Shown in pieces: positions 9,576 to 40,433 of a stretch of 64,000 bases of DNA (position 1 is the stretch's first letter; the number at the start of each line of letters is the position of its first letter). The notes under the pieces were generated by a model that did no database searches, was not told where the DNA came from, and saw nothing but the letters and a program-made list of their open reading frames with translations. The stretch comes from Rheinheimera riviphila (GTDB lineage Bacteria; Pseudomonadota; Gammaproteobacteria; Enterobacterales; Alteromonadaceae). The DNA is taken from contig NZ_SACS01000005.1 in assembly GCF_004005945.1 (NCBI RefSeq), positions 1 through 64,000 of the forward strand, in the 5' to 3' direction. Made by a program: the position numbers and the translations under genes.

Positions 9576-10490
9576 ATGCTGCAGCTTCAGGATTTAAAAC
9601 TGTTCCGGCAGATTGTCGTGACCGGCAGTATCAGCGCCGCCGCCCGGCAATTTGATTTAACACCCGCCGCTGCTTCCGCCGCGCTAAAACGGCTGGAGCT
9701 TTATGTGGGCACAGCGTTGATTATCCGCAGCACTCGTTCGCTGAAACTCAGTAGCGCTGGCGAAAAATTCCTGCAACATTGCCAGAATGCGCTGACCGCG
9801 CTGGAGCAAGGCAAACAGGAGCTGACTGAACAAAGTGGCCGGATTGGCGGTGAATTGCGCTTAACTGCACCGAGTGATTTGGGCAGAAATCTGTTATTAC
9901 CCTGGCTGGATGAATTGCAGGATCAACACCCGGATTTACGCATCCGGCTGGAGCTCTCCGATAAAATTGCCGGCCTCACTGCCGAGCAAGTCGACGTCGC
10001 GCTGCGTTATGGCGCCTTGCCGGACTCCAATTTAGTATCCTTTCATATTACCGACGTGCCACGGGTGTTATGTGCTGCGCCAAGTTATCTGGCGATACAT
10101 GGTAAGCCGCTGCATCCAATTGATTTACAACAACATAACTGCTTGTTGTATTTAATCGACCATCGCACTTTCGCCAACTGGCATTTTGGCTATCAAGACG
10201 ATCCTTTTACAGTCAGTGTCAGCGGCAATCGGGTGACCAACGACGCCGAAATCGTCCGGCGCTGGGCGGTCAGCGGCAAAGGCATTGCGCTTAAATCGGC
10301 GCTGGATATGTCTGAAGATTTACGCGCCGGTCGGGTCGTTTCGTTATTGCCGGAATTCAAACCCCACCCGCAACAACTGAATCTGGTCTGCGCCAGCCGC
10401 GCTCAGGTCAGCCCCACGGTGTTGTTGCTGCGTGATGAGCTCCGAATTCGGGTGGCGCAGCAGTTTAACCTGTTGAATTTACAAACGTAG
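9576..10490 (+). CDS. LysR-family regulator
   Basis: A 304-residue LysR-type regulator. The winged helix-turn-helix covers residues 1-60 (LKLFRQIVVTGSISAAARQF, then AASAALKRLE), followed by the periplasmic-binding-protein-like effector domain (GELRLTAPSDLGRNLLLPWL onward). Of two possible starts (TTG at 9570, ATG at 9576) I prefer the ATG; neither has a strong ribosome site. It likely controls the divergent oxidoreductase gene. Its 3' end overlaps the end of the convergent GH92 gene by 12 bases, so it marks the left border of the N-glycan locus and need not belong to it. Confidence 0.88.
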   Translation: MLQLQDLKLFRQIVVTGSISAAARQFDLTPAAASAALKRLELYVGTALIIRSTRSLKLSSAGEKFLQHCQNALTALEQGKQELTEQSGRIGGELRLTAPSDLGRNLLLPWLDELQDQHPDLRIRLELSDKIAGLTAEQVDVALRYGALPDSNLVSFHITDVPRVLCAAPSYLAIHGKPLHPIDLQQHNCLLYLIDHRTFANWHFGYQDDPFTVSVSGNRVTNDAEIVRRWAVSGKGIALKSALDMSEDLRAGRVVSLLPEFKPHPQQLNLVCASRAQVSPTVLLLRDELRIRVAQQFNLLNLQT

Positions 10491-12797
10491 TACACCACCT
10501 TGCACCAGTTGTTGATGGCTGATAAATGGGGTTTTCAGCGCTTTTTCTTGCCAGCTGTAGCTAGAGTTGCTTGCAGCATTCTGTTGAATTTCCAGTGTTT
10601 TTCCTGGGTAATAAGCTGGGTTTAGGCTGATACGGGCGCTTTTTACCGCTGGTTCGAATAGGGTGTATGTTGGGTTGCCGGGATCGGTGGGGTAGAGCCC
10701 GAGCATGCTAAATACCAGCCAGCTGGATAAGGTGCCGGTATCGTCGTTGCCGGGTAAACCGGCTGGTGTGTTGTGATAATGTTGTTTAATTAGCTGTTGT
10801 ACCCGGGCAGAGCTTTGATTGGTTTGCCCAAGATAGTTGTACAAAAACGGATAAGTAATATCCGGCTCGTTCGCCATGTCAAATTTGCCGCTGTCAAAGG
10901 TCAGATCCAGTTGCCGGACAAACTCGTCTTCGCCCAATAGCTTGATCAAGCCCGGCACATCGTGCGGTACATAAAAACGGTAGTTCCAGGCGGTGCCTTC
11001 GATATAACCGGCGGTGGGTTCAAAGTTGCGGCCGCCGTCCGGATTAAACGGGCTGTGCCAGTCGCCGTTACGTTTTTTAGGTCGTAGCATGCCGGTCGAA
11101 GTGTCGAATAACTTTTGGTAATTCAGTGATTTCTGCTGAAACAGCTTGGCATCTTCTGCATGGCCAAGCGCGGCCGCCAAACGGCCAATGGCGGCATCCG
11201 CCAGATAATATTCCAGACTGGTGGAGACGCTGCCATCATATGGGCCTTCATCGTCGACCGGCACGTAACCCAGTTGCAAATAATCAGCATTTTCCGGGCG
11301 CAGTGGGTTATTCGTCGCCGTCAATGCGGCTTTTTTCATCGCCTGGTAAGCGGTTTGAACATCAAAATCGCGGATGCCGCGTAAATAAGTATCGGCAATC
11401 ACCACCGAAGCCGGGTCGCCGACCATCACTTTAGTTTCGATGCCAACCAGTTCCCATTTCGGCAGCCAACCCTGTTCCTGACTCATCGCCACCATTGTCT
11501 GCACCATCGCGCTTTGCAGCTCGGGATAAACCAGACTGAGCAGCGGATGCACATTGCGATTGCTGTCCCACAGGGAAAACACCGAATAGCGTGGCTGATT
11601 TTTATTATTGCCAAACAAAGGTTTATCTGCGGCGAATTCGCCCATCAGCGGGTAATCGCCGTTGATGTCGCTGATGATGCTGGGGTGGATCAGGCTGTGG
11701 TACAAGGCGGTGTAAAATAAGGTCTTTTCTGTTGAACTGGCATCGATGTCGATACGGCTGAGCAGACTATCCCAGGCGTTTACGGCGCGTTGACGTAATT
11801 CATCGAAGCTTAAACGCTGTGCTGTCTGGTACTGCTCTGCATCCAGATTTTGCCGCGCATTGTCGATACTGACCCAGGACACCCCCAGCTCGACTTCAAT
11901 CACCTCGTCAGCCTTGTTGTCAAAGCTGAAATAAGCGCCGATATCGTCACCGCTCAGCAGCTGACGATGAAAAGGGTAGGCTTTGTAGTTGTTGTTATGC
12001 GGCATCCACTCGGCTTCGACATTTTTGTATAACGGCATTTTTTTAAAGCCGCCAAAACGCTGCGCTGGTTTATTAAAACGGGCGACAAAATACACCGGCC
12101 GCGCTTGTTCGCTGTGATAACAAAAAGTGCCAATAGTGCGGCTGCCTTGCACTTCGGTGGCGGAATTAATTTGCAGACTGCCGCCATTTTCGTTGGTCAG
12201 GCCAAGCCCTAAATTCAGCAGAATATTCGCCTGACCGGCCGGAAAGGTAAAACGGCTGCGACCGGAGCGTAAGGTGCTGGTGACTTCGGCGGTGGTTTGA
12301 TACTTGGTTAACACAGTGCGGTAATAACCAGGGCTGGCTTGTTCAGCCTGATAAGTGGAGCCGTATTTTTCGGCGTCCAGTTCCAACGCGCCAGTGGTTG
12401 GCATCAGCAGCAATACGCCCAAATCCGGACAGCCAACACCACTTAAATTGACGTGGCTAAAGCCGGTCAGCAATTTATTCTCGAAGATATAACCGCGTGA
12501 ATTCCAGGCGGCGTCTTTTTCAAATGGATTCAGTTTATCGCCGTTGGCGCTTTTGCCTTCAAAAGCAACGTTAAAAGGCGCTACCGACACCAAGGCCTGC
12601 GGATATTGCGCGCCGGGGTGGGTGGCTCCGAAGTTGGCGGTACCGATAAATGGATTGACGTATTGGCTGGGGCTGTTGAGCGCGCTGCCATTTTTTTGCT
12701 TTGTAATTTGCTCCGCCGCAGTTGCAAAGACGAAGACGTTGCTAGTCAGCAGCAGGCTGAGTTGTAGGTAGCGAGCAAATTGTTTATTCCATTTCAT
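10479..12797 (-). CDS. GH92 alpha-mannosidase (copy 1, secreted)
   Basis: A 772-residue glycoside hydrolase family 92 exo-alpha-mannosidase, a calcium-dependent inverting enzyme family. The N-terminus is a Sec signal peptide without a lipobox (ending about FATAAEQ). Family landmarks are YVNPFIGTANFGATHPGAQ, GFSHVNLSGVGCPDLG, IEGTAWNYRFYVPHDVPGL with the predicted general acid Glu, and GLPGNDDTGTLSSW with the catalytic-base aspartates. In the +1-subsite region it reads MANEPDITYPFLY, where copies 2 and 4 read HGNEP..HH, so its linkage preference probably differs. It is the last gene of the leftward operon, and its ATG overlaps the stop of copy 2 by four bases. Confidence 0.92.
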   Translation of the reverse strand: MKWNKQFARYLQLSLLLTSNVFVFATAAEQITKQKNGSALNSPSQYVNPFIGTANFGATHPGAQYPQALVSVAPFNVAFEGKSANGDKLNPFEKDAAWNSRGYIFENKLLTGFSHVNLSGVGCPDLGVLLLMPTTGALELDAEKYGSTYQAEQASPGYYRTVLTKYQTTAEVTSTLRSGRSRFTFPAGQANILLNLGLGLTNENGGSLQINSATEVQGSRTIGTFCYHSEQARPVYFVARFNKPAQRFGGFKKMPLYKNVEAEWMPHNNNYKAYPFHRQLLSGDDIGAYFSFDNKADEVIEVELGVSWVSIDNARQNLDAEQYQTAQRLSFDELRQRAVNAWDSLLSRIDIDASSTEKTLFYTALYHSLIHPSIISDINGDYPLMGEFAADKPLFGNNKNQPRYSVFSLWDSNRNVHPLLSLVYPELQSAMVQTMVAMSQEQGWLPKWELVGIETKVMVGDPASVVIADTYLRGIRDFDVQTAYQAMKKAALTATNNPLRPENADYLQLGYVPVDDEGPYDGSVSTSLEYYLADAAIGRLAAALGHAEDAKLFQQKSLNYQKLFDTSTGMLRPKKRNGDWHSPFNPDGGRNFEPTAGYIEGTAWNYRFYVPHDVPGLIKLLGEDEFVRQLDLTFDSGKFDMANEPDITYPFLYNYLGQTNQSSARVQQLIKQHYHNTPAGLPGNDDTGTLSSWLVFSMLGLYPTDPGNPTYTLFEPAVKSARISLNPAYYPGKTLEIQQNAASNSSYSWQEKALKTPFISHQQLVQGGVLRL

Positions 12798-15187
12798 TGG
12801 GCTTTTTCACTCATGGTAAAAATCAGTTCGCCACCTTGCATTAGTTGCTGGTGAGATAGGGTAAAGCCGGTGACTGGTGTGCCGTTGAAAGTCACATTCT
12901 TTACATACAGATGCTGCGGCGACTGATTTAATGCTTTGACCCTCAGCTGCTTACCGTTACCCAGTTGCAGTCTGGCCTGATGTACTTCCGGGCTACCCAA
13001 CACGTAGTCGCCGGACACCGGATCAACCGGATAAAAGCCTAAAGCGCTGAATAAATACCAGGCCGACATTTGGCCGGCATCTTCATTGCCAGCCAGACCA
13101 TCCGGCTTGGTGCTGTACAGCTCGTCCATAATCCGCCGCACCAGTGCTTGCGTCTTGGCAGGCTGACCGGCGTATTGGTACAAATACGGCACATGATGGC
13201 TGGGTTCATTGCCATGCACATACTGGCCAATATAACCGGAAATCCATTCTGGCAGCGGTTGCGCGGAGCTGGTTTGTGAGGAGCTGGTTGGTGAGGAAAT
13301 CAGCTGAGCAGTGCTAAACATCTGATCCAGTTTGGCGCTAAACGCGGCCGGACCTCCGTACAATGCGATCAAACCCGGCACATCATGCGGCACAAAAAAG
13401 CTATATTGCCAGGCGTTGGCTTCACAATAATCTTCCGGATAATAGGCGTTCGGATCAAACGGCAGCCGGAATTTGCCGCTGACGTCTTTAGCGCGCATAA
13501 AGCCAGTGCTGGCATCAAAATGTTGGTGATAGTTTTGCGAGCGGGCGCGAAATTCGGCAGCAATATCGGTCTTACCTAAGCGCTCGGCCAAGCGGGCAAT
13601 GGCCCAATCGTCATAGGCATATTCCAGCGTCAGCGCGACATTCCATTTGCGCTCGGCATAAGGCACAAACCCAAGTTGTTGATAACTTTGTAAGCCAAAT
13701 GCCTGCTGTTTGGCACTTTTAACAGCTAGCTGCAGAATTTTATCGCCAAGATTGCTTGGTAATAAACCTTTCAGGTAGTTATCGACCAACACCGGTACTG
13801 CATGGTAACCCAGCATCATATCGGTTTCGTTGCCCTGAAAATTCCACACCGGCAGCAAACCGGAGATGTCGGCGTGATCCAGCAATGATAATAACTGTTG
13901 TTGATTACGATCTGGGTTAAACAGCGTTTTCCAGGGATGCAAAGCGCGGAAAGTGTCCCACAAACTGAAAAAATCGTGATGGGTATGGCCGCTGCGTTGA
14001 TGCACCTGGCCATCTGGGCCTAAAAACCGGCCGTCGCTGTCGGCAAAGACCCGCGGCGCCAAGGCACTGTGGTACAAGGCGGTGTAAAACTGGGTCAGAT
14101 TATCGCGCGTTGCCGTCACCTGTACCTGCGACAACTCAGCGCGCCAGGCTTGTTGTGCTTGTTGTTTCACCTGCTCAAAACTCAGCTTTTCACCTTCGGC
14201 CAGCAGATTTTGCCGGGCGTTGGCGCTACTAACTGAACTTAACGCGGTGCGGACTGTGATCTCGGTATCGCTTGCGGCAAATTGCAGCAATAACGCCACC
14301 GCTACGCCTTGTTGCTGATGTGGTGCTTTGGCGATTGGCGTGGTGCTCAATTGACCATTGGCTTGAAGCGCGATGTCAGCACCCTCAAGTTGCCACTGTA
14401 AGCTACTGATTGGCTTTGAAAACTTAGTGTAAAAGTACACTTTTTGCTTGGGTGCCCAGCCGCTGGAATAACGATAACCTTCGATGCTATAAGCATCGAT
14501 AATCCGGATGGCGCTGGCAGTGGTTCTATCCCAGTTACGGTTATAGCCTAAATCGAGCCGGATCAGCGGTGTGCTGACTGTTTCTTTAGCTGAACCTGCA
14601 ACCTGATCAAACCGATACCGCTGATATCCGGTCCGCAGGCCAGCAGTCAGTTCAACATTCACCCGATAATCCGGCAAATACACCTGGTAATAACCAGCTT
14701 TAGCTTGTTCCTGTTGATGTGAAAAGCTGGAGACAAGCGTGCCTTGCGCTGGGCCGCCGTCGGTTTTTTCACTGTTAAAGGGCAAACGCAGCGGCATAAA
14801 GGAGATATCGTACAAATCACCGGCGCCGGTGCCGGATAAATGGGTATGGCTAAAGCCGGCGATCATGGTATCGGGGTAAAAATAACCGGCGATCCAGTCC
14901 CAGCCGGTGCGACCGTTGTCGGGGCTGAGTTGCACCATGCCATAAGGCACGGTCGCGCCAGGGTAGGTTTTACCCTTGCCATCAGTGCCAATCAGTGGGT
15001 CAACAAACTGCAGCGGATCGGTGGCGGTTAGCACTTGATCAGCTGAGTTGCTGGCCCTGGCTTGTTGCGGTGCCTGTTGTGCGGGCTGACTGCAGCTCGT
15101 GACGCCAACCATCAGCAGCAAGCTTGCCAACACCGCAATACCCTTTGCCGAAACAACCTTCGCTGAAACATCATCGCAGTTATGCAT
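12794..15187 (-). CDS. GH92 alpha-mannosidase (copy 2, lipoprotein)
   Basis: A 797-residue GH92 enzyme. I start it at the ATG at 15187, which has a GAGG ribosome site and lies 22 bases after the AGE-family gene's stop; a longer frame to 15328 would run into that gene and has no signal sequence at its start. The chosen start gives a lipoprotein signal (LLLMVGVTSCSQ). Landmarks are FVDPLIGTDGKGKTYPGATV, GFSHTHLSGTGAGDL, EANAWQYSFFVPHDVPGLI and GLAGNEDAGQMSAWY. The motif YVHGNEPSHHVPYLY is shared with copy 4 and is the type seen in alpha-1,2-acting members as far as I recall; that specificity is inference. Anchoring to a membrane would keep it near the TonB receptor's substrates. Confidence 0.92.
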   Translation of the reverse strand: MHNCDDVSAKVVSAKGIAVLASLLLMVGVTSCSQPAQQAPQQARASNSADQVLTATDPLQFVDPLIGTDGKGKTYPGATVPYGMVQLSPDNGRTGWDWIAGYFYPDTMIAGFSHTHLSGTGAGDLYDISFMPLRLPFNSEKTDGGPAQGTLVSSFSHQQEQAKAGYYQVYLPDYRVNVELTAGLRTGYQRYRFDQVAGSAKETVSTPLIRLDLGYNRNWDRTTASAIRIIDAYSIEGYRYSSGWAPKQKVYFYTKFSKPISSLQWQLEGADIALQANGQLSTTPIAKAPHQQQGVAVALLLQFAASDTEITVRTALSSVSSANARQNLLAEGEKLSFEQVKQQAQQAWRAELSQVQVTATRDNLTQFYTALYHSALAPRVFADSDGRFLGPDGQVHQRSGHTHHDFFSLWDTFRALHPWKTLFNPDRNQQQLLSLLDHADISGLLPVWNFQGNETDMMLGYHAVPVLVDNYLKGLLPSNLGDKILQLAVKSAKQQAFGLQSYQQLGFVPYAERKWNVALTLEYAYDDWAIARLAERLGKTDIAAEFRARSQNYHQHFDASTGFMRAKDVSGKFRLPFDPNAYYPEDYCEANAWQYSFFVPHDVPGLIALYGGPAAFSAKLDQMFSTAQLISSPTSSSQTSSAQPLPEWISGYIGQYVHGNEPSHHVPYLYQYAGQPAKTQALVRRIMDELYSTKPDGLAGNEDAGQMSAWYLFSALGFYPVDPVSGDYVLGSPEVHQARLQLGNGKQLRVKALNQSPQHLYVKNVTFNGTPVTGFTLSHQQLMQGGELIFTMSEKAQ

Positions 15188-15209
15188 CAACCTCACCCCG
15201 GCCTCCGGC

Positions 15210-16460
15210 TTAGTCTGCGCTGCTAAAGCTAACAAGCGGCAAGCTGGCAAAGCCCATACCACGCAGCACTTCGATGCAGGCACACAGGGTGTGATAATCA
15301 CACTTGGCACCGGCGGCACTTTTCTCATTACTGACTTTGCTGTTGTCGCGGTTCAGTAAGCGAAACCAGGCGCCGTATTGGTGGTCAATCATGTGATCCC
15401 AGCTGTATTGCCATAAATTCTGGTACGCCACTAAATAGACTTCAGCGCCAGTGGTTTGATACAACAATGCTGCCGCCGCCATACTTTCAGCTTGCACCCA
15501 GAAATATTTGTCATCGTCACACCTGCGACCGTCCGGGGCAAAACCGTAAATCAGGCCGCCATGTTCGGCGTCCCAGGCTTGCTCGTAAGCGCGGTCAAAC
15601 AGTTCACGGGCTTTGCTCACCAGCCAATCTTGCGGTTGATGGCGGTGCAAAATCAGTAATAACTTAGTCCATTCGGTCTGATGACCTGGCTGGAAACCCC
15701 AGGGCCGATACAGGTTTTTTGGATCAGCTTTGTTGTAGTTCCAGTCTGGCTGGAAACTGCTGGTGTAATGTTCCCACACCAGGCCGTCGGTTAACGCCGC
15801 TTGCCGCACTGTAATGTTCTGCGCCAAGGTCATAGCGCGATCGAGGAAGTGCCGCTCGCCACAGGCTTCATAAGCGGCCAGCATCGCTTCACATAAATGC
15901 ATATTGGCGTTCTGGCCGCGATAATCACTGAGCATACCTTGCGGGCTGATTTCGTCGGCATACAGGCCGTGGTCGGCTTGCCAGAAACGTTGTTCCAGCA
16001 GCTGATAAGTTTGGTTGAGTTGGTGGCTGTCCTTAATTAACCCGGCTTTATGCACTGCGGCATAACAGAGCAGCACAAAGGCATAACCATAAGCTTGTTG
16101 GGTGGTATCGAGCGGCTGATGGTCTTGTAACGTCCAGGCGTAACCCTGGATATCTTCGCGCCAGTGCACTTGCTCGACATAGTCCAGACCGTGCTGGGCG
16201 ATTGTTTTGTATTTCGCTGACTTTTCAGCATCAGCGGCAAATACCATCGCCGCAGTGGCGTAGTTAATGACGATGCGGGTGCTGCTCACCAGCTGCTTAA
16301 ATCCCGGATTAAACAACTCGCCGTTATCAAAGTAGTTGTGAAAATAACCGCCGGACGGGTCGACTACCCGTGAGTCATAAAAACTCAGAATGTCCTGACA
16401 ATGCTGCAGAATAAAATTCTGGTCGTAATAGTTACTAGGCTGTGAGGTGCTTGGCATCAT
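15210..16460 (-). CDS. AGE-family epimerase/isomerase, probable D-mannose isomerase
   Basis: A 416-residue member of the N-acylglucosamine 2-epimerase superfamily, an (alpha/alpha)6 barrel. Conserved segments include GRGxF-like FYDSRVVDPSGGYFHNYFD, the active-site run DYRGQNANMHLCEAMLAAYE, and GFQPGHQTEWTKLLLIL with its HQxEW motif. No signal peptide is present, so it acts in the cytoplasm. Set beside a fructokinase and alpha-mannosidases, its likely reaction is mannose to fructose, as in YihS/mannose isomerases; GlcNAc or cellobiose epimerisation are the alternatives within the family. The tandem ATGs at 16460 and 16457 follow a GGAG site; an overlapping upstream TTG at 16478 also exists. 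Confidence 0.85.
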   Translation of the reverse strand: MMPSTSQPSNYYDQNFILQHCQDILSFYDSRVVDPSGGYFHNYFDNGELFNPGFKQLVSSTRIVINYATAAMVFAADAEKSAKYKTIAQHGLDYVEQVHWREDIQGYAWTLQDHQPLDTTQQAYGYAFVLLCYAAVHKAGLIKDSHQLNQTYQLLEQRFWQADHGLYADEISPQGMLSDYRGQNANMHLCEAMLAAYEACGERHFLDRAMTLAQNITVRQAALTDGLVWEHYTSSFQPDWNYNKADPKNLYRPWGFQPGHQTEWTKLLLILHRHQPQDWLVSKARELFDRAYEQAWDAEHGGLIYGFAPDGRRCDDDKYFWVQAESMAAAALLYQTTGAEVYLVAYQNLWQYSWDHMIDHQYGAWFRLLNRDNSKVSNEKSAAGAKCDYHTLCACIEVLRGMGFASLPLVSFSSAD

Positions 16461-16474
16461 CAATCTCCAAAAAT

Positions 16475-17548
16475 TCAACTGGCCGGCGAAACCGGCAATA
16501 AAGGCAACAAAGGCAATAAGGTTTGAATATCGATCTGGCGTTTAGCCAAATCGGCAAGAATTTCGGTGGCATCCGGCAGGGCAGGGAAAGCGCCGGGCCG
16601 GGTGACGGTGACTGCGCCGCAGGCCGTGGCAAATTCAATACAGGCATGCAATAAGGCGCCTTTCGGTAATGAAGCAGCTGGTAAACAGCTGAGGCTGAAT
16701 AGCAACCCCCCGATAAAAGCATCCCCACCTGCAGTGGTGTCGACCACCTGTACTTTGGGCGGAATGACCTTAGCTACAGCAGTGCCAGCGCGGTAGTAGT
16801 CAATACTGCCGCCGCCATCGGTAACCAGCAATAACTGACAACCGGCTTGCAGGCAGTGCTGAAGATAAGCCGCTTCCGACTCGAAGCCATCACAAAGATA
16901 CTGCAATTCATCCCGCGAAAACTTCACAATATCCGCCTGCCACACCAGCGCGTTGACCCGCTCGCGATCGGCAGCACCTTCACGCCATAAGTTATGCCGT
17001 AAATTGACATCAAAACTGACCAGGCAGCCGGCTGCTTTGGCCTGCTTTACCAGCAAAGTTGTGGTGTGCGCGATAAATTCATCAGTCAGGGTATTGCTGC
17101 AAAAATGCAATATCGGCTTGGCTGCAAACCAGTCGGCGCCAATTTGCTCCGGCGCGAATAACACGTCGGCGCTTTGGTCGCGGTAAAACGAAAAACTCCG
17201 GTCGCCGGTTTCATCCAGCATGACAAAGGCCAAAGCGGTTTTGGCGGTTGGGTGGCGCTTCAATAACGACAAATCCACGCCATAAGCCTGTAACGCTTGC
17301 GCCAGAAAATCACCAAATGCATCCTGGCCGACCTGACCGGCGAAGCTTGCCAAACCGCCTAATTTCGCCACAGCAACCGCGGCATTGGCCGGTGCACCAC
17401 CCGGAAATTGCCGGTAGGCTGGTAATTGCAGTGGGCCTTGTTGCTGCACACCGCTATGCAAAAAATCAATCAGTGCTTCGCCAAAACACAACACCTGACG
17501 TGGTGTGGTGGCAGTAACAGAAGATGCTGGCAAAACTGTAGTAGTCAT
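16475..17548 (-). CDS. PfkB-family fructokinase
   Basis: A 357-residue ribokinase-fold sugar kinase. It has the opening VLCFGEALIDFL, the glycine-rich substrate motif FPGGAPANAAVAVAKLGG near residue 50, and the C-terminal PfkB signature DTTAGGDAFIGGLLFSL with the catalytic aspartate. Length fits, with a slight N-terminal extension. The predicted reaction is fructose plus ATP to fructose 6-phosphate, which with the neighbouring AGE-family isomerase gives a kinase-last route from mannose into glycolysis. Its ATG overlaps the permease stop by four bases, and its own stop lies just before the isomerase start, so the three genes form a tight metabolic block. Confidence 0.88.
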   Translation of the reverse strand: MTTTVLPASSVTATTPRQVLCFGEALIDFLHSGVQQQGPLQLPAYRQFPGGAPANAAVAVAKLGGLASFAGQVGQDAFGDFLAQALQAYGVDLSLLKRHPTAKTALAFVMLDETGDRSFSFYRDQSADVLFAPEQIGADWFAAKPILHFCSNTLTDEFIAHTTTLLVKQAKAAGCLVSFDVNLRHNLWREGAADRERVNALVWQADIVKFSRDELQYLCDGFESEAAYLQHCLQAGCQLLLVTDGGGSIDYYRAGTAVAKVIPPKVQVVDTTAGGDAFIGGLLFSLSCLPAASLPKGALLHACIEFATACGAVTVTRPGAFPALPDATEILADLAKRQIDIQTLLPLLPLLPVSPAS

Positions 17549-21369: not shown

Positions 21370-21383
21370 TGTAATCGATTACA
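21370..21383. promoter_or_regulatory. LacI-type operator 1 (leftward operon)
   Basis: TGTAATCGATTACA is a perfect 14-bp palindrome with the central CG typical of LacI-family sites. It lies about 80 bases upstream of GH92 copy 3, the first gene of the leftward operon. An identical 14-mer lies before the TonB receptor gene. Confidence 0.85.
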
Positions 21384-21483: not shown

Positions 21484-21497
21484 TGTTATCGATTACA
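21484..21497. promoter_or_regulatory. LacI-type operator 2 (lacI side)
   Basis: TGTTATCGATTACA differs from the perfect site by one base. It sits seven bases before a candidate -35 box of the LacI gene, 101 bases centre to... that is, about eleven helical turns from operator 1 (114 bases start to start), so looping between the two is possible. This suggests autoregulation. Confidence 0.75.
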
Positions 21498-21631
21498 TGG
21501 TGCTTGCTATTGTCAGAAAGGAGTGGGAATATAGCCAAAATCGCTATATTTCCGTTATGTTTAGCGGGCTACAGCTGAACAATATGTAGAGCAAACAGCG
21601 CAATCCGCTGGCTTTGGGATCTAAAACACGA

Positions 21632-22843: not shown

Positions 22844-22854
22844 CTAACCGCGAC

Positions 22855-22870
22855 ATGTAATCGATTACAT
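22855..22870. promoter_or_regulatory. LacI-type operator 3 (TonB receptor)
   Basis: ATGTAATCGATTACAT is a perfect 16-bp palindrome whose 14-base core equals operator 1. It sits about six bases after the predicted transcript start of the receptor gene, so bound repressor would block initiation or early elongation. Confidence 0.88.
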
Positions 22871-22995
22871 TTTGCTGTAAACCATTTCCGCTGATGTTGA
22901 GAAATGCAGTGGTCATAACATCATAAGAAATAATAATAATGAATCGAGACATGCTTTAAATGTTTACGATTACACCATTCACTGGGGGAGAACCC

Positions 22996-28793: not shown

Positions 28794-28805
28794 CTTGGTC
28801 AAGTC

Positions 28806-28850: not shown

Positions 28851-28866
28851 TTGTAGTTTTAGCGCA

Positions 28867-28897: not shown

Positions 28898-29024
28898 CCT
28901 TCGTTATGTAAACCAAGTTTTTGCTTTGTTTTTTTCTTGTTTCATCGTGCTTTGTCAGTGCTTTTAGTTTTTGTTTGTATGCTGGTGAAACCGATTTTTA
29001 TTTTTATGTTTCAGGAGTAAGCCG

Positions 29025-32838: not shown

Positions 32839-33668
32839 GCTTCACAACATCTTTGCAGCAATTTGCCGGTATCGACATCGAAATTTGCGTCAATTGCGAT
32901 GATTTATCGACATTAGCGATACAGGTTCAAGCGGCGAAGGCGGGCTGCGCGACCAGACTGGAACTCTGTGGTGCGATGCACGAACAAGGACTCACCCCAA
33001 CCGTCGAAGCGGTAAAAATTGCTCGGCAAGCCTGGGGTAATGGGCCTGGCTTAGTGGCGATGTTAAGGCCACGCGGTGGTGATTTTTATTATCAGGCGGA
33101 CGACGTAGCGCTGATGCAACAGCAACTATCGGCACTGGCTGCAGCGGGCGCTGATGCAGTGGTGTTGGGCGTGCTGCGCCAGTCGTCCGATGGACAGATT
33201 GAAATCGACTGGCCGTTGTTGAACGTCTTGCTGGCGCAAGCGGCTGATTTATCAGTTGAAGTCAATTTCCACCGCGCCTTTGATGTGTTGCCTATCCCTA
33301 CCAGAGCAGCGGCACTGCAGCGTTTGCAACAGCTTGGCATTGCGCGGGTGCTCACCGCCGGTTGTGCCTGGGATAGCGGTTTCGGTGCGCTTGAAGGTGT
33401 CCCGCAGTTGCAACAGGATTTACAACAAACCGCCAATGCACAGGCGCCACAACTGGTGATTGGTGGCGGCGTTACGCTGAGTAATGTTGCCATGCTACGC
33501 AAACAACTCATGCAACTCACACAACTCACACAACTTTCGTCAATGACCAGCACGGCTGGCTGTTATTCATTTCATTGTTATTCGGCGGTGTTGACCGACG
33601 GGCGGGTCGACCAGCACAAGGTCGCGGCGCTGGTGGCAACAGCTGCAATACCCCACATTTTTCGTTAA
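32835..33668 (+). CDS. cutC: CutC-family TIM-barrel protein
   Basis: A 277-residue member of the CutC family. Conserved stretches are IEICVNCDDLSTLAIQVQAA, RLELCGAMHEQGLTP, VAMLRPRGGDFYY and VNFHRAFDVLP. No signal peptide is present, so it acts in the cytoplasm. CutC was named for copper homeostasis, but its biochemical role is unsettled. Here it is locked by ATGA overlap into an N-glycan catabolic operon between GH85 and beta-mannosidase, which argues for a sugar-related task. A Leu-Thr-Gln repeat near the C-terminus (QLMQLTQLTQLSS, coded by tandem repeats at about 33508-33537) looks like a recent slippage insertion. The start at 32835 has the usual N-terminus; upstream frame is noise. Confidence 0.85.
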   Translation: MSFTTSLQQFAGIDIEICVNCDDLSTLAIQVQAAKAGCATRLELCGAMHEQGLTPTVEAVKIARQAWGNGPGLVAMLRPRGGDFYYQADDVALMQQQLSALAAAGADAVVLGVLRQSSDGQIEIDWPLLNVLLAQAADLSVEVNFHRAFDVLPIPTRAAALQRLQQLGIARVLTAGCAWDSGFGALEGVPQLQQDLQQTANAQAPQLVIGGGVTLSNVAMLRKQLMQLTQLTQLSSMTSTAGCYSFHCYSAVLTDGRVDQHKVAALVATAAIPHIFR

Positions 33669-33670
33669 GT

Positions 33671-36310
33671 ATGGACCTTATGAACCAAGCCCACAGTGAT
33701 AGCGCATTTAGCACCCTTTTCGCAGCAACAGTCGCCAGCCCGGCAACCCGCCGCCTGGATTTAACCGGCAGCTGGAGTTTTTCAGAGGCGCTTAGCGATG
33801 TCTGGCATCCGGCGACAGTGCCCGGCTGCAATTTCACCGACTTATTCGCCAACGGCCTGATTGCCGATCCGATGCAGGCCGACCATGAAACAGAGTTGCA
33901 GTGGATAGAACAAAAAGACTGGGTCTACCGGCGCGAATTTCAGTTAAGCGCCGCCGAACTACAAAGTCGGGTCTGGCAGCTGGAAGCTCTGGGGCTGGAT
34001 ACCTATGCCGATATTTACCTGAACGGGCAGTTGCTGGCCAGCACCGACAATATGTTTGTTGGTCATCAGCTGGATTGTCAGTCGCTACTGGTTGCCGGTA
34101 ACAATCTGCTGCAGATTTATTTCCATTCACCAATTAATAAAGTGAAACCGCTCCAGCTGGCGTCCGGCATGGTCTATCCGGCGGAAAATGATAAGTCGGA
34201 CGACAAGCTCAGTGTTTATGTGCGCAAGGCACCGTGCCACTTTGGCTGGGACTGGGGCCCGCGATTTGTCAGTAGCGGCATCTGGCGGGGCATTGCTTTA
34301 GTCGGTCATCAGGCGGTGCGAATTGACGATCTGCAGTTTACCCAGCGTGCTCTAACTACAGCTGAGGCCAGCCTGCAGTTTGATCTGGATTTTACCGTGC
34401 TGACGCCGGGGCAGTATCAGCTGCAACTACAATGCAGTGTACGACCGGAACTAAATCAAATAGTTACGCAGGAACTCACCGCTGGCGCACAACAATTTCA
34501 GTGGTTGCTGGCGATGCAACAGCCAGAGCTATGGTGGCCGGCCGGGCTTGGCGAAGCGTATTTATATCCGTTTTCGGTCGCTGTGTATGATGCAAACAGT
34601 CAACAGCTGCTGGCAGAACGCTCCTTGCAGATTGGCCTGCGCACTGTAGAAGTCATCAACGAAAACGATGCCGATGGCCAAAGCTTTTACTTTAAGGTCA
34701 ATGGCTTGCCGGTGTTTATGAAAGGCGCTAACTATATTCCGGCCAGCGCTTTTCCGGGCACTTTAACCGCCGCCGATTATCAGCGTGAGTTTGCTGCAAT
34801 AAGCGCCGCCAACATGAATATGCTGCGGGTTTGGGGCGGTGGTTTTTATCAGGACGAGCAGTTTTACCAACTGGCCGATCAGCATGGCGTATTGATTTGG
34901 CAGGACTTTATGTTCGCCTGTAGTTTATATCCGGGTGATGCGGACTTTTTGGCCAATGTTGAACGTGAAACGCGGTACAACATTAAACGGCTGCGTAACC
35001 ATGCCTGTATCGCCATGTGGTGTGGCAATAACGAAGTGGATATGGGCATTGCGCGCTGGGATTGGCCACAGAAATTTGGTTATTCAGAGCAGTTATTTAC
35101 CAAGCTAAAACAGGACTACTGCCAGTTGTTCGGACAGTTGTTGCCGGGTCTGGTGCAGCAACTCGATGGCGACCGCTTTTACCTGCGCTCATCACCGATC
35201 AGCTTCTGGGAAGACGATGCCGACCATCTCGCCAACCACCATTTTTGGGGCGTCTGGCATGGTGAGCAGCCTTTTACCGAATATCAAAAACGTATTCCGC
35301 GTTTTATGAGCGAATACGGCTTTCAGTCCTTTCCGCTTAAAAGTTCGGTCGATAAGTTTTTACCCCAAGCCGAGCAGCGGTTGGAATCGCCGATGTTGAC
35401 GGTGCATCAGAAGCATCCACGCGGCAATAAACTGATCCAGAGTTATCTGGCTGATGAGTATCAGCTACCGAAGGATTTTGAGCAGCTGCTGTATTTAAGT
35501 CAGGTACAGCAAGCGTTGGGGCTAAAGCTCGCCTTTGATGCGCACCGTGCGGCAATGCCATTTTGCATGGGCACTTTGTATTGGCAATTGAATGACACCT
35601 GGCCGGCCGCTTCTTGGTCTGGCATTGATTATTACGGCCGCTGGAAGGCGCTGCATTATCAGGCAGCACGGAGTTTCCGGGCGCAAAGTCTGGTATTTAG
35701 TGAAGACTTAAGTGAACAGTTTAGCGAACAAAATCAACAGCTCAGGTTAAAACTGGTTTCCGATAGCCAGGTTGCGATGGCCGCCACCTTACAACTACGG
35801 TTGCTGGATTTCAGTGGCGCTGTGTTGTGGCAGCAGTCGCAGCAAATCAGCGTCGCGCCGTTGCAAGTCATGCAATTGCAACAGTGGTCACTAGCCGAGC
35901 TGACAAAGTTAGCCGATGACCGGCAACTGGTGCTGCACGCTCAACTGCTGTCCGCTGCCGATGGTCGGGTTTTAACAGACAATCTGCATTTTTTCCGGCC
36001 TAATCGGGAGCTGTTGTTGCAGCAAGCTGCCGCCGAGCTACAGATCAGCGCCATCGATGGTTTGCTCACAGTACGCTTGCAAAGCCATACCCTGCTGCGG
36101 CAAGTGTTGCTGGAATTACCGGATCTGGAGGGCAAGGTGCTGAATTTCTCGGATAACTTTATCGATTTGTTGGCAAACGAGCCGGTGGAAGTGACTGCCG
36201 CCCTGCCTGATTTAACCAGCGCCCAAATACTGGCGCTGGCATCGCAGCTGCGGGTGCGTTCGCTGGTGGATAGTTATCCAGACACTTCAGTTAACGGAGT
36301 GCCGGTATGA
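33671..36310 (+). CDS. GH2 beta-mannosidase
   Basis: An 879-residue glycoside hydrolase family 2 enzyme of the beta-mannosidase branch. The N-terminal sugar-binding domain shows LDLTGSWSF, DWVYRREFQL and HFGWDWGPRFVSSGIWR. The barrel carries LRVWGGGFYQDEQFYQLADQ, the acid/base Glu in WCGNNEVDMGIARWD (about residue 455) and the nucleophile in FMSEYGFQSFP (about 547). There is no signal peptide, so it works in the cytoplasm on imported Man-beta-1,4-GlcNAc left by GH85 plus the alpha-mannosidases. Starts at 33671 or 33680 are equally plausible. It is two bases behind the CutC stop and overlaps the symporter start by ATGA. Confidence 0.93.
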   Translation: MDLMNQAHSDSAFSTLFAATVASPATRRLDLTGSWSFSEALSDVWHPATVPGCNFTDLFANGLIADPMQADHETELQWIEQKDWVYRREFQLSAAELQSRVWQLEALGLDTYADIYLNGQLLASTDNMFVGHQLDCQSLLVAGNNLLQIYFHSPINKVKPLQLASGMVYPAENDKSDDKLSVYVRKAPCHFGWDWGPRFVSSGIWRGIALVGHQAVRIDDLQFTQRALTTAEASLQFDLDFTVLTPGQYQLQLQCSVRPELNQIVTQELTAGAQQFQWLLAMQQPELWWPAGLGEAYLYPFSVAVYDANSQQLLAERSLQIGLRTVEVINENDADGQSFYFKVNGLPVFMKGANYIPASAFPGTLTAADYQREFAAISAANMNMLRVWGGGFYQDEQFYQLADQHGVLIWQDFMFACSLYPGDADFLANVERETRYNIKRLRNHACIAMWCGNNEVDMGIARWDWPQKFGYSEQLFTKLKQDYCQLFGQLLPGLVQQLDGDRFYLRSSPISFWEDDADHLANHHFWGVWHGEQPFTEYQKRIPRFMSEYGFQSFPLKSSVDKFLPQAEQRLESPMLTVHQKHPRGNKLIQSYLADEYQLPKDFEQLLYLSQVQQALGLKLAFDAHRAAMPFCMGTLYWQLNDTWPAASWSGIDYYGRWKALHYQAARSFRAQSLVFSEDLSEQFSEQNQQLRLKLVSDSQVAMAATLQLRLLDFSGAVLWQQSQQISVAPLQVMQLQQWSLAELTKLADDRQLVLHAQLLSAADGRVLTDNLHFFRPNRELLLQQAAAELQISAIDGLLTVRLQSHTLLRQVLLELPDLEGKVLNFSDNFIDLLANEPVEVTAALPDLTSAQILALASQLRVRSLVDSYPDTSVNGVPV

Positions 36311-38097
36311 ATCTGGTCTGGATTGATCATGCCATTATCCTGCTCTATCTGATAGGCACCTTATGGCTGGGATTATGGATTTCACGCCGCGCTAGTAAAG
36401 ATCTGAATTCCTATTTTCTGGGTGGCAAAACCATGCCCTGGTGGATGCTCGGTGTATCGAACGCTTCAGGCATGTTTGATATTGCCGGCACCATGTGGCT
36501 GGTCACCGTCTGTTTTGTCTATGGCCTGAAAAGCGCTTGGCTGCCGTGGATTTGGCCGATTTTTAATCAGGTATTTTTGATGGTGTATCTGTCGGCCTGG
36601 TTACGCCGCTCCAATGCGATGACCGGCGCCGAATGGCTGCAAACCCGTTTTGGTCATGGTCGCGGCGCTGAACTCTGTCAGCTGGTGGTGGTGGTATTTG
36701 CGCTGGTCAGCGCCATTGGTTTTATCGCTTACGGCTTTAAAGGCATCGGTAAATTTGCCGCCATTTTCCTGCCGTGGGATTTATCACCCGATATGTACGC
36801 GCTGATTATTTTTGCCGTCACCACTTTGTATGTGGTGAAAGGTGGCATGTACGGCGTGGTGTTTACCGAGTTACTGCAGTTTTTGCTGATGACCATCGCC
36901 GCTGTCGCCGTTGGGGTGATTGCGATGCAGCAAGTCAGTCCAGAGCAGCTGGCTGCGGCCACGCCAGAGGGTTGGGACAGTTTATGGTTTGGCTGGAACC
37001 TCGATTTAAACTGGAGCGGGCTGATTGACTCGGTCAACGACAAAATTCACAACGATGGCCTCGATTTATTCGGTCTGATGTTGATGATGATGTTGTTTAA
37101 AGGTGTGTTATTCAGCATGGCTGGCCCGGTGCCGAACTACGATATGCAACGCATTCTGGCGGCGAAAAGCCCGTCCGAAGCGGCCAAGATGAGTGGTTTG
37201 GTGTCCCTGGTAATGTTTATTCCACGGTACATGATGGTCGCTGGTTTTGCCGCACTGGCGCTGGTGTATATGCAGCCGGAAATTCAGGCGGCCGGGGCTG
37301 GTTTTGATTTTGAACAACTACTGCCTTATGCCATCGAGCGTTTTGTGCCGGTTGGCTTAGCAGGTTTACTGATTGCCGGTTTGCTGGCGGCCTTTATGTC
37401 GACGTTTTCGGCGTCGTTAAACGCGGCGCCGGCTTATTTTGTCAACGATATCTACAAAAAGTACCTGCGCCCACAAGGTTCGACCAAAGAATATATCCGC
37501 ATCAGCCATCTGGTGTCGGTGCTGTTGGTGGTGATTGGGGTGGCGCTGGGGCTGCTGCTGGAATCGATTAACGATATTATGCAGTGGATTTTTGGTGCGC
37601 TGTTTGGCGGGTACGCCGCGGCCAATTTACTGAAATGGCATTGGTGGCGTTTTAATGCTTATGGTTATTTCTGGGGCATGTTGTCGGGGCTCATCGCATC
37701 GATGTTATTGCCGTTGTTGTGGCCGGATTTACAGCCGCTGTTAGCGTTCCCCTGGTTATTGCTGGCTGGGTTGATTGGTTCAGTCGCCGGGACTTTATTG
37801 ACGCCGCCGGACGATGAAGCGGTGCTGATGAGTTTTTACCGCCAGGTGCGGCCCTGGGGATTCTGGGCGCCGGTCAAAGCCAAGGTGCTGGCGGCTGATC
37901 CGACGTTTTTCCCTGACCAAACGCCTGGCCGCGATGCAGTGAATATTCTGGTCGGTACCGGCTGGCAATTAACGCTGGTAGTGCTGCCGATTTGTCTGGT
38001 GATGCAGCAATGGCAGGGTTTCTGGGCGGCATTATTGGTGCTGCTGGTGACCTCCTGGTTCCTGAAAATCAACTGGCTCGATAAACTCAAGGATTAA
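36307..38097 (+). CDS. Sodium:solute symporter (SSS family)
   Basis: A 596-residue SSS/SSF permease with about 14-15 membrane helices. Typical segments are SKDLNSYFLGGKTMPWWMLG near the N-terminus and the sodium-site helix PVGLAGLLIAGLLAAFMSTF with its Ser-rich end. It lies between beta-mannosidase and GH92 copy 4 in the rightward operon. By position it should bring an inner product into the cytoplasm, such as Man-GlcNAc for the beta-mannosidase that lacks a signal peptide, or GlcNAc for the kinase. The choice between them is inference. Confidence 0.9.
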   Translation: MNLVWIDHAIILLYLIGTLWLGLWISRRASKDLNSYFLGGKTMPWWMLGVSNASGMFDIAGTMWLVTVCFVYGLKSAWLPWIWPIFNQVFLMVYLSAWLRRSNAMTGAEWLQTRFGHGRGAELCQLVVVVFALVSAIGFIAYGFKGIGKFAAIFLPWDLSPDMYALIIFAVTTLYVVKGGMYGVVFTELLQFLLMTIAAVAVGVIAMQQVSPEQLAAATPEGWDSLWFGWNLDLNWSGLIDSVNDKIHNDGLDLFGLMLMMMLFKGVLFSMAGPVPNYDMQRILAAKSPSEAAKMSGLVSLVMFIPRYMMVAGFAALALVYMQPEIQAAGAGFDFEQLLPYAIERFVPVGLAGLLIAGLLAAFMSTFSASLNAAPAYFVNDIYKKYLRPQGSTKEYIRISHLVSVLLVVIGVALGLLLESINDIMQWIFGALFGGYAAANLLKWHWWRFNAYGYFWGMLSGLIASMLLPLLWPDLQPLLAFPWLLLAGLIGSVAGTLLTPPDDEAVLMSFYRQVRPWGFWAPVKAKVLAADPTFFPDQTPGRDAVNILVGTGWQLTLVVLPICLVMQQWQGFWAALLVLLVTSWFLKINWLDKLKD

Positions 38098-38102
38098 TCC
38101 CA

Positions 38103-40433
38103 TTGAATATTGTCATTTCCCCCGGCTGCCACCGCAGCCGTAGCCGCTGCTTTGGTGTTACGCTCGGATTAACGCTGGTTTTGGGCAGCTGTGCGGCGCC
38201 AGAAACGGCTATTTCCCCAGTTGCTTCAACGGCAGCAACTGCTACAACTGCAACCACAGTAGCCACAACAGCAGCCTCGGAGCCACCTTCGGCAAATGCC
38301 TTGGCGGTGCTGAAATACGTTGATCCCTTTATCGCCACCGGCGGCCATGGCCACGCTTTTCCAGGTGCCGTGGTGCCTTTTGGCATGGTGCAACTGAGTC
38401 CGGATAATCCAAGTCAAGGCTGGGACTGGACCTCGGGTTACCATTATTCTGACAATGTGCTGATTGGTTTTAGTCACACCCATTTATCCGGCACCGGCGT
38501 TGGCGATTTACTGGATATTCTGCTGATGCCACTGCAAGGTGATTATGCGCAGCAACAAAAAAATGAACACAAACGGCCGTTTGCGCTGTATGAGCATGCC
38601 GATGAACAAGCCAGTCCGGGTTTTTATCAGCTGAATTTGCCCGGGCTTGGTGTGAAAGCTGAGCTGAGCGCCACCGAGCGGGTGGGCGTGCATCGCTATA
38701 GTTATAGCAACAGTGAAAAGGCCAAACTGCTGCTCGATTTGGGTTATGCCCAGAATTACGATAAGTCAGTGGTGACCTTGTTAAAGGTTGAAGACGCTTA
38801 CACCATCAGCGGTTACCGCATTTCCACGGGTTGGGCTAAATATCAGCCGCTGTATTTTGTGGCGACCTTTAACCAGCCGTTTGCTGCACAGTTGTATCAG
38901 GATGGCAAAGCGGTCAAAGGCCAACTGCTGCAAACCGAAAAAGGCCAGGCAGTGCTCGATTTTGGCGCTTTACCGGGGCAGTCGCTGGTCGGCAAAGTGG
39001 CACTCTCTTATGTCAGCATCGACGGCGCCAAAGCCAACTTAGCGGCGGAAGTGCCGCATTTTTCGTTTGATCGGGTGAAAGCAGAAGCTGCCCAGCGCTG
39101 GGCGACGCAGCTGGGACGCTTTCAGGTGAACGATCCTGACGAAACCGCCAAAACCAAGTTCTATACCGCGCTTTATCATAGCTATCTGGCGCCGCAACTG
39201 TTCAGCGATGTCGACGGCCGCTATTTTGGTGCCGATGGCGCGGTGCATCAGCCAATGGTTGATGGCAACCAGCAGCAAATCCCGCGTTATACGCTGTTTT
39301 CACTGTGGGATACTTTCCGCGCTTTGCATCCGTTATTGACCATCACCGATCCTTCGCGCGTTGACCCGATGATGCACTCCTTGCTGGGTTTTTATGATGA
39401 AAGCGGTTTGCTGCCAACCTGGGATCTGATGTCAAACGAGACCGATGTGATGATTGGTTATCATGCAGTGCCGGTGCTGGCGGATGCTTATCTTAAAGGC
39501 CTGACCACAGCTTCTGCCGGGCGCATTCTGCAAGCCGCTAAAGCCTCGACGCAGCAGTCACGTTTTGGCATCGATTTGTTTGGCAAATACGGGTATGTGC
39601 CGTCAGATCTGGACGTCGAAGCGGTATCAAAAACGCTGGAATATGCTTTTGACGACTATGCAATTTCGAAAATAGCCGAGGCGGCCGGCCAGCAGGCCGA
39701 TGCCGATTATTTTGCGAAACGGGCTTTGTCGTATCAGCAACTGTTTGATGCCAGCACCGGTTTTTTCCGGGGGAAAACCAGCAACGGCGCTTGGGTCAGC
39801 CCCTTTAATCCGATTTATGTGGCGCATCGCACCACCGATTACACCGAAGCCAATGCCTGGCAATACACCTTTTTTGTACCCCATGATGTGCCGGGTTTAA
39901 TGGCGCTTTATGGCGGCGAAGCGAAGTTCACCGAAAAACTCGATACGTTGTTTAGCATGAGTTCAAAGATGGAAGGCGAGGTGTCGCCGGATATTACCGG
40001 CTTAATCGGCCAGTACGCCCATGGCAACGAGCCGGTGCATCATGTGCCTTATCTGTATGCTTTTACCGGCAAAAAATGGCAAGGTGAAGCGCGGATCAAA
40101 CAAATCCGCGACAGCATGTACCGCGCCGAACCCAATGGCCTGGCCGGCAATGACGATCTCGGTCAGATGTCGGCCTGGTATGTGTTTAGCGCTTTGGGTT
40201 TTTATCCGCTTAACCCGGTCGGTGGCGAATTTGTGCTCGGCACACCGCAGTTTTCTGCTGTCACACTTAAACTTGATCATGGCAAGTTGTTGCAGATCAC
40301 CGCTGAACCGGCAGCTCCAGGCGAGTATGTCACAGCTGTATCTTGGAACGGCCAGCGGATAGTAGGGCAGGTGCTGAACTACCAACAGCTGATGCAAGGT
40401 GGTACCTTGCACTTTGAGTTTGGGCCTATCTAA
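38103..40433 (+). CDS. GH92 alpha-mannosidase (copy 4, lipoprotein, TTG start)
   Basis: A 776-residue GH92 enzyme closest to copy 2. The only usable start is TTG at 38103: an in-frame stop lies upstream and no ATG follows before the conserved core. An AAGGA site about nine bases upstream and a lipoprotein signal (LGLTLVLGSCAAP) support it. Landmarks are YVDPFIATGGHGHAFPGAVV, GFSHTHLSGTGVGDLLDILL, EANAWQYTFFVPHDVPGLM, YAHGNEPVHHVPYLY and GLAGNDDLGQMSAWY, so catalytic and +1-site features match copy 2 and suggest similar linkage use. It is five bases behind the symporter gene and is the last gene before the strong terminator. Confidence 0.92.
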   Translation: MNIVISPGCHRSRSRCFGVTLGLTLVLGSCAAPETAISPVASTAATATTATTVATTAASEPPSANALAVLKYVDPFIATGGHGHAFPGAVVPFGMVQLSPDNPSQGWDWTSGYHYSDNVLIGFSHTHLSGTGVGDLLDILLMPLQGDYAQQQKNEHKRPFALYEHADEQASPGFYQLNLPGLGVKAELSATERVGVHRYSYSNSEKAKLLLDLGYAQNYDKSVVTLLKVEDAYTISGYRISTGWAKYQPLYFVATFNQPFAAQLYQDGKAVKGQLLQTEKGQAVLDFGALPGQSLVGKVALSYVSIDGAKANLAAEVPHFSFDRVKAEAAQRWATQLGRFQVNDPDETAKTKFYTALYHSYLAPQLFSDVDGRYFGADGAVHQPMVDGNQQQIPRYTLFSLWDTFRALHPLLTITDPSRVDPMMHSLLGFYDESGLLPTWDLMSNETDVMIGYHAVPVLADAYLKGLTTASAGRILQAAKASTQQSRFGIDLFGKYGYVPSDLDVEAVSKTLEYAFDDYAISKIAEAAGQQADADYFAKRALSYQQLFDASTGFFRGKTSNGAWVSPFNPIYVAHRTTDYTEANAWQYTFFVPHDVPGLMALYGGEAKFTEKLDTLFSMSSKMEGEVSPDITGLIGQYAHGNEPVHHVPYLYAFTGKKWQGEARIKQIRDSMYRAEPNGLAGNDDLGQMSAWYVFSALGFYPLNPVGGEFVLGTPQFSAVTLKLDHGKLLQITAEPAAPGEYVTAVSWNGQRIVGQVLNYQQLMQGGTLHFEFGPI

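Follow-up and report, generated by a model that had tools for sequence, protein, structure and literature searches.

The high-mannose polysaccharide utilization locus (PUL) of Bacteroides thetaiotaomicron combines an endo-glucosaminidase, BT3987, with several enzymes of glycoside hydrolase family 92 (GH92) (PMC10154615). The nix cluster of Xanthomonas, a gammaproteobacterial system like the one described here, encodes a TonB receptor, a beta-mannosidase and an alpha-mannosidase, with an asparaginase gene and cutC in the region (PMC5700972, PMC6718126). GH85 and GH92 genes share one cluster in Alteromonas macleodii AD45 (PMC6972757), and the alf-2 pathway of Lactobacillus casei uses a glycosylasparaginase and a sugar kinase on asparagine-linked N-acetylglucosamine (GlcNAc-Asn) (PMC6960285). 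Here and below, these papers are cited from passages of their text. Elements of each recur in the locus described here, which occupies positions 10479-40433 of a 64,000-nucleotide stretch of Rheinheimera riviphila DNA (the window) and is likely to serve growth on high-mannose N-glycopeptides. The genes for its glycosylasparaginase (AGA) and its CutC protein are coupled across many genomes, and this coupling is the finding worth following.

Gene content and enzyme assignments

With Pfam and NCBIfam profiles, the locus was resolved into 16 genes in two divergent operons flanking a LacI-family gene (21614-22642). The window is part of contig C70 of a genome of 4.75 Mb, and loci of named Alteromonadaceae fall among its relatives, in keeping with that family. 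The left operon reads GH92c, MFS permease, fructokinase, isomerase, GH92b and GH92a; the right operon reads TonB receptor, discoidin lipoprotein, GlcNAc kinase (NagK), AGA, GH85, CutC, GH2, sodium symporter and GH92d. All genes named in a sequence-only reading of the window were recovered where it had placed them, and its tally of 13 enzymes and transporters plus a regulator, a receptor and a lipoprotein was correct.

10479-12797, minus strand: GH92a, exo-alpha-mannosidase, Sec signal by eye (Pfam GH92, 485 bits)
12794-15187, minus strand: GH92b, lipoprotein exo-alpha-mannosidase (Pfam, 557 bits; N-terminus LLMVGVTSC; 47% identity to GH92d)
15210-16478, minus strand: AGE-family isomerase, probably D-mannose isomerase (Pfam GlcNAc_2-epim; NCBIfam below cut-off)
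16475-17548, minus strand: PfkB kinase, probably fructokinase (NCBIfam fructokinase, 226 bits, below the cut-off of 450)
17545-18855, minus strand: MFS permease of the glucose/galactose (gluP) subfamily, probably for mannose (TIGR01272, 370 bits, cut-off 203)
18852-21293, minus strand: GH92c, lipoprotein, predicted alpha-1,2-mannosidase of the BT3990 type with a His-Glu pair (1040 bits to 2wvx/2ww1)
21370-21383, no strand: probable LacI operator TGTAATCGATTACA, exact match
21484-21497, no strand: probable LacI operator, one mismatch to TGTAATCGATTACA
21614-22642, plus strand: LacI-family regulator (Pfam, NCBIfam)
22856-22869, no strand: probable LacI operator TGTAATCGATTACA, exact match, 5' of the receptor operon
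22960-25959, plus strand: TonB-dependent receptor (TIGR01782, 622 bits)
26055-28793, plus strand: lipoprotein with four discoidin (F5/8 type C) stretches (Pfam; lipobox LLLSGC; adjoins the receptor in 11/11 relatives)
29025-29987, plus strand: GlcNAc kinase of the NagK kind (NagK_SO3507, 299 bits, below the cut-off of 370)
29984-31009, plus strand: glycosylasparaginase (AGA), Tat-like signal RRDFLK (Pfam Asparaginase_2; comparison with solved structures)
31006-32838, plus strand: GH85 endo-beta-N-acetylglucosaminidase, Sec signal by eye (Pfam, 261 bits; 231 bits to 3fhq)
32835-33668, plus strand: CutC, TIM barrel, no signal peptide by eye (PF03932, 122 bits; fold model)
33671-36310, plus strand: GH2 beta-mannosidase, no signal peptide by eye (696 bits to 2je8)
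36307-38097, plus strand: sodium/solute symporter, proposed substrate Man-beta-GlcNAc or GlcNAc (Pfam SSF, 135 bits)
38103-40433, plus strand: GH92d, lipoprotein exo-alpha-mannosidase (nearest solved structures 7zgm and 6f8z)

Four-base overlaps are present at eight gene junctions, GH85–CutC among them. Probable starts lie 3' of the mechanical open reading frame starts for GH92b (15187), GH2 (33671), AGA (29984) and the discoidin lipoprotein (26055). Signal peptides and lipoboxes were judged by eye throughout. Lipoboxes were seen in GH92b, GH92c, GH92d and the discoidin protein, Sec signals in GH92a and GH85 and a Tat-like signal in AGA, while no signal peptide was seen on CutC, GH2 or NagK.

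The Asparaginase_2 protein scored 394 bits against glycosylasparaginase and 144 bits against the best isoaspartyl peptidase, and the latter identity was rejected on these scores. The autoprocessing threonine is present as Thr209, at the position where the beta chain of the solved enzyme starts, and both D208 and T209 are invariant in 12 aligned rows. Judged by closeness and by the autoprocessing threonine alike, the protein is a predicted glycosylasparaginase. The GH85 assignment rests on a Pfam score of 261 bits (cut-off 22) and on N205 and E207 of the N-x-E motif, presumably catalytic, which are invariant in 10 rows.

The alpha-1,2 specificity of GH92 enzymes has been tied to a His, a Glu and a Trp of the +1 subsite (PMC9522356). 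Among the four GH92 proteins the His-Glu pair was found in GH92c and was absent from GH92a, GH92b and GH92d; this marks GH92c alone as a predicted alpha-1,2 enzyme, by a test that used His and Glu, the Trp not having been located. Of the two solved structures closest to GH92d, 6f8z is BT3130, handled as an alpha-1,3 enzyme in PMC9522356, and the code 7zgm appears in the same paper, presumably as its own alpha-1,3 GH92. The AGE protein is closest to 3gt5 and 5x32 and is probably a D-mannose isomerase, although its score of 200 bits against that NCBIfam family lies below the cut-off of 600. CutC agrees with its family in profile (PF03932, cut-off 23), fold and motifs. The sequence-only reading had listed CutC, an identity that the profile bears out, and had given it no role.

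Co-occurrence of CutC and glycosylasparaginase

AGA loci were retrieved with AGA alone, and the best 80 of 587 were kept. CutC was sought in these stretches with the window's CutC and a profile built from its matches. It was present in 50/80, lying in 44/80 on the same strand and no more than 300 bases downstream of AGA, and was absent from the stretch in 30/80. A whole-genome search of 37 among those 80 genomes found CutC in 33.

The coupling was then counted in Bacteroidota, the phylum of Flavobacterium, using 198 genomes treated as independent; the centre of the sample, G433, was picked for having both genes. These counts cover the matches listed, down to about E 6e-36, with AGA assigned by eye from roughly 45% identity upwards. 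CutC occurs in 61 of the 198 genomes and AGA in 96. All 61 CutC genomes have AGA, and CutC is present in 0/102 genomes without AGA (Fisher 2e-26, with genomes taken as independent). A stricter AGA call leaves AGA in 59/61, the exceptions being G539 and G551. Two genomes with AGA-like pieces of 45-50% (G618, G472) were counted as AGA-less, neither having CutC, and the broken CutC pieces of G491 were counted as present. Among genomes of at least 3.5 Mb, CutC is found in 50/64 with AGA and in 0/31 without (154 genomes had a size); the pattern holds within genome-size classes, so size by itself does not explain the coupling. The two genes are often close: of 63 CutC genes, 33 are no more than 10 kb from AGA, and 26 of the 33 stand directly behind it.

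A similar association was observed in the order of G310 (289 genomes; matches listed down to about 1e-73), where AGA occurs in at least 97 genomes. Among at least 60 with a listed CutC, 58 have AGA, which directly precedes CutC in 56 of the 58 listed pairs. In the family of the window (89 genomes, G000-G088; AGA at E 1e-90 or better), CutC was found in 20 genomes, AGA in 18 and both in 17, so that 17/20 CutC genomes carry AGA. In a tree, all 21 CutC rows of this family form one clade (100/99) apart from other CutC, and most of these alteromonad sequences adjoin AGA. Copies of this clade away from AGA include two on described stretches. One, on stretch L158 of G042, lies beside DNA gyrase B-type and signalling genes, and another, on stretch L161 of G086, has surroundings whose reading-frame lengths match those of L158. 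G086 thus has two CutC copies, one AGA-linked and one not.

The pair might also be one old operon, co-inherited without any shared function, an explanation regarded as unlikely. It draws on G083 and G038, which have the order NagK-CutC-AGA after a receptor and discoidin lipoprotein. Their CutC was not shown to be native, a non-alteromonad origin not being rejected (approximately unbiased (AU) test, p 0.389), and therefore the pair may have moved as one. Their AGA is nevertheless of separate origin: it falls among Bacteroidota sequences, and monophyly of the 19 alteromonad AGA rows was rejected (AU p 2e-5). Gene order also varies (AGA-CutC, CutC-AGA, GH85 between), and 28 of the 61 Bacteroidota genomes with CutC have none within 10 kb of AGA and still have AGA, although some of these pairs may be split by contig ends. 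Independent re-formation of the pair in G083 and G038 was considered and is not claimed, separate origin being supported for AGA and the AU value for CutC being 0.389. In these two genomes (stretches L165 and L166) the receptor is 69% identical to that of the window and adjoins the Bacteroidota-type AGA, which looks like a transfer into an existing locus.

Predicted structure and possible function of CutC

The predicted CutC fold (predicted local distance difference test score 90) is best matched by human CutC. The fold and the motifs E, RxELC, RPRGGDF and HRAFD are common to the window's protein, human 3iwp and Shigella 1twd. Residues E16, E43, C45, R78, H146, R147, D150 and H247 are conserved whether or not the CutC is linked to AGA, at a minimum of 92% (R147, Bacteroidota group), which speaks for one chemistry.

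The product of AGA, 1-amino-GlcNAc, is described as not metabolizable and as unstable at acidic pH (PMC6960285). An enzyme acting between AGA and NagK would be an advantage to a cell at neutral or alkaline pH, and the gene that occupies this place is CutC. It is therefore proposed that CutC converts 1-amino-GlcNAc from AGA to GlcNAc and ammonia, providing GlcNAc for NagK. In animals, cytosolic PNGase produces glycosylamine ends. CutC from bacteria to humans might be a glycosylamine hydrolase that clears AGA's 1-amino-GlcNAc in bacteria and could act on those ends in animals, a generalization that is put forward tentatively and is more doubtful than probable.

A different GlcNAc compound could be the substrate instead, with CutC acting as an epimerase, mutarotase or GlcNAc-phosphate enzyme; this is a realistic possibility, rated somewhat below even. 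The next-nearest folds include ribulose-phosphate epimerase, N-acetylmannosamine-6-phosphate epimerase and aldolases, and NagK and CutC are adjacent without AGA in G060. What speaks for the AGA product is that CutC presence tracks AGA in the Bacteroidota sample, in a count made without other sugar genes as controls, and that CutC directly follows AGA in the 44 of the best 80 loci.

The literature is divided on CutC as a copper homeostasis protein. One review sees all available evidence as favoring copper homeostasis, including copper sensitivity upon knock-down in worms and human cells, and holds that CUTC takes part in it in a mode still to be defined (PMC11083455). The copper phenotype of E. 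coli cutC, by contrast, was traced entirely to the small RNA MicL (PMC6538781). That CutC is here a copper protein merely sitting in the operon, as the family name would have it, is quite improbable: among the matches listed, no genome of the Bacteroidota sample has CutC without AGA. We also know of no enzyme of the locus that needs copper. CutC is now tied to one named reaction neighbor, AGA, while the copper label from E. coli rests on a phenotype reassigned to a small RNA.

Several observations weigh against conversion of the AGA product by CutC. AGA lacks CutC in 35 of the 96 AGA-bearing Bacteroidota genomes, among the matches listed, so AGA can work without it. In the family of the window, 3/20 CutC genomes (G042, G044, G060) have no AGA. 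Elsewhere in the window's order (58 further genomes) CutC is found in 21 and AGA (E 1e-90) in none, and CutC above the cut-off also occurs without AGA in three genomes of the class sample. Ten scanned neighbors of AGA-free CutC in that part of the order and in one additional genome (G090, G139, G134, G294, G131 and G096) showed no consistent sugar theme; those in G134 include a BglG-type antiterminator and an MFS protein, and the others in the scan are housekeeping and signaling proteins. The CutC-AGA count lacks control counts for other sugar genes. AGA has a Tat-like signal and CutC has none, both by eye; with AGA exported and CutC not, the glycosylamine would need to cross the inner membrane. 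Finally, groups of NagK, AGA and CutC in G015 and G005 may be remnants of a larger locus, because a short discoidin-lipoprotein fragment adjoins NagK in G015 (L163, 12697-12852) and TonB receptors lie some kilobases off in both. In AGA and CutC sequence these two genomes are near G021 and G004.

These groups, like that of G087, consist of adjacent NagK, AGA and CutC without GH85 or GH92 beside them. G087 belongs to another genus, and the two neighbors scanned there are a phosphatase-family protein and an AraC regulator. In G001, of the family of the window, an AGA fragment and NagK are present and CutC is not. The idea of NagK-AGA-CutC as a minimal ancestral operon was dropped, as the discoidin fragment of G015 and the AGA fragment of G001 suggest that some groups may be remnants; the general glycosylamine-hydrolase reading of CutC was rated slightly less likely on that account. 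Ten proteins neighboring the AGA-free CutC of G042, G044 and G060 likewise had no sugar theme in common; those in G060 include NagK and an MFS permease.

Conservation of the locus

GH85 was found in 12/147 genomes of the relatives set, the own genome included (11/146 others). A class-wide even sample (274 with the own genome) gave no other full-length GH85 and one weak partial match. Around GH85 the same genes recur in 11/11 relatives, up to the ends of their contigs and with two different gene orders, which indicates that the locus is more than a chance assembly. Receptor, lipoprotein, NagK, AGA and GH85 are present in all 11, as is CutC, which in G018 is on a second contig with GH2, symporter and GH92d. 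The left operon was seen in 9/11; the contigs of G020 and G074 stop short of it. The loci of G018 and G003 have no fructokinase gene, and NagK-AGA stands at the end of the locus rather than in the middle in G086 and G024.

Among the best 80 AGA loci, GH85 is present in three: those of Paraglaciecola polaris (apparently the same contig as G074), Lacimicrobium alkaliphilum and Agaribacter marinus. In A. marinus CutC is not between GH85 and GH2, but a CutC gene is present on contig C5 of that genome. In Pseudoalteromonas ostreae the stretch contains a receptor, a lipoprotein, NagK, CutC and AGA and no GH85.

Regulation

The palindrome TGTAATCGATTACA occurs as two exact copies and one copy with one mismatch, all intergenic beside the LacI gene. 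No further site was found in the 4.75 Mb genome at up to one mismatch, and a reversed control pattern gave 0. A regulon reaching beyond the locus was rejected on this result. At least one site with up to one mismatch is present in 11/11 relatives, set beside a background of 0.15 sites per 40 kb in shuffled sequence at up to two mismatches. Exact copies are absent from G086 and G024; G024 has an extra operator-like site immediately 5' of its relocated NagK-AGA. A local LacI repressor probably controls both operons through the three predicted operators. On stretch L034 of G024 (14843-18671), two additional discoidin-domain reading frames lie 3' of the locus, with an operator-like site between them.

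Substrate and proposed pathway

With endo-beta-N-acetylglucosaminidase, alpha-mannosidases and beta-mannosidase in one unit, the locus has the gene content of a high-mannose N-glycan locus. The locus, including the flow set out below, is likely to be an inducible system for growth on high-mannose N-glycopeptides. The sequence-only reading, which the result supports in part, had named this substrate. The enzyme set fits it, and the 16 genes, to which this search was confined, encode no endo-mannanase, sialidase, galactosidase, fucosidase or hexosaminidase.

Mannose-rich glycopeptides would be taken across the outer membrane by the TonB receptor, perhaps aided by the discoidin lipoprotein. The four GH92 enzymes, predicted to be exported and three of them lipoproteins, would remove alpha-mannose, and GH85 would cleave between the two core GlcNAc residues. 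From the remaining GlcNAc-Asn, AGA is expected to give 1-amino-GlcNAc, not GlcNAc. Mannose would be imported by the MFS permease and converted by isomerase and kinase to fructose 6-phosphate, while Man-beta-GlcNAc would probably enter through the sodium symporter and be cleaved inside by GH2. CutC may turn 1-amino-GlcNAc into GlcNAc and ammonia, and NagK would phosphorylate GlcNAc. The LacI repressor would probably govern both operons through its three operators.

The description of the locus as complete and self-contained proved too strong. Glycosylasparaginases act solely on glycans with a single Asn (PMC6960285), and peptidases from elsewhere would therefore be needed. Neither a GlcNAc-6-phosphate deacetylase nor a deaminase is among the 16 genes. 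The discoidin lipoprotein had further been said to stand in place of SusD. By Pfam and NCBIfam no SusD family is found among the 16 proteins, and the locus accordingly lacks the SusC/SusD pair of a Sus-like PUL; the F5/8 type C stretches do stand where such a PUL would have its SusD-like lipoprotein. The replacement itself is a guess. Proteobacterial TonB receptors generally function without SusD.

Fungal or algal alpha-mannan, rather than protein-bound N-glycans, might be the target, and the four GH92 enzymes would suit it. A. macleodii AD45, with its GH85/GH92 cluster, was tested and grows on alpha-mannan; strain MIT1002 grew comparably (PMC6972757). The AD45 result is a point against the N-glycopeptide reading. 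This alternative is nonetheless very unlikely, as neither a GH76 nor a GH99 endo-mannanase is among the 16 genes and the identical operator is on both operons. AGA, NagK and GH85, from what is generally known of their activities, suit a chitobiose-Asn core.

Adjoining genes

A CstA-type symporter gene (40626-42692) immediately follows the locus. It was considered as a member and is judged to lie outside, because the stretches searched in the 11 relatives contain no CstA match at E 1e-8. The proteins encoded at 42998-44122, 45908-46825 and 46891-47676 (374, 305 and 261 aa) have no Pfam matches, and the first has no NCBIfam match either. Close to the glycan locus, at 49479-55240, sigma-70 and DNA primase genes adjoin TsaD, presumably the usual macromolecular synthesis neighborhood. 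At 135-5157 are an AcrB-type RND efflux pump, a membrane fusion protein and a TetR regulator.

Comparison with known systems

Compared with the B. thetaiotaomicron PUL, the locus has a GH85 and not a GH18 enzyme, includes genes for AGA, NagK, CutC and the isomerase and gave no SusD family, although its GH92c is closest to BT3990 of that species. The Xanthomonas nix cluster differs in NixF, with its GH18 domain, and in its fucosidase, hexosaminidase and galactosidase; GH85 is not named in the passages of the two papers. There cutC is described as a copper gene and the asparaginase as N-glycan related, the latter being placed in a predicted VirK interaction network that also lists CutC (PMC6718126, PMC5700972). 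The PUL of A. macleodii AD45, compared here without its gene list, was assigned to mannan, with GH85 and GH92 both termed mannosidases (PMC6972757).

In L. casei, AsnA2 has no signal peptide, unlike the AGA of the window. Spontaneous decay of 1-amino-GlcNAc is invoked there, and the term CutC is absent from the paper (PMC6960285). Beyond the passages cited above, no publication linking CutC to glycosylasparaginase or glycosylamines was found in the searched literature, outside which most subscription papers lie.

The sequence-only reading had called the gene set a different solution. It is a variant, a cluster with GH85 and GH92 (A. macleodii) and a cutC gene in the nix region already being in print. 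With its probable substrate, the locus suggests how a gammaproteobacterium could feed on oligomannose glycoproteins by means of GH85, AGA and a discoidin lipoprotein. The link between CutC and AGA matters more.

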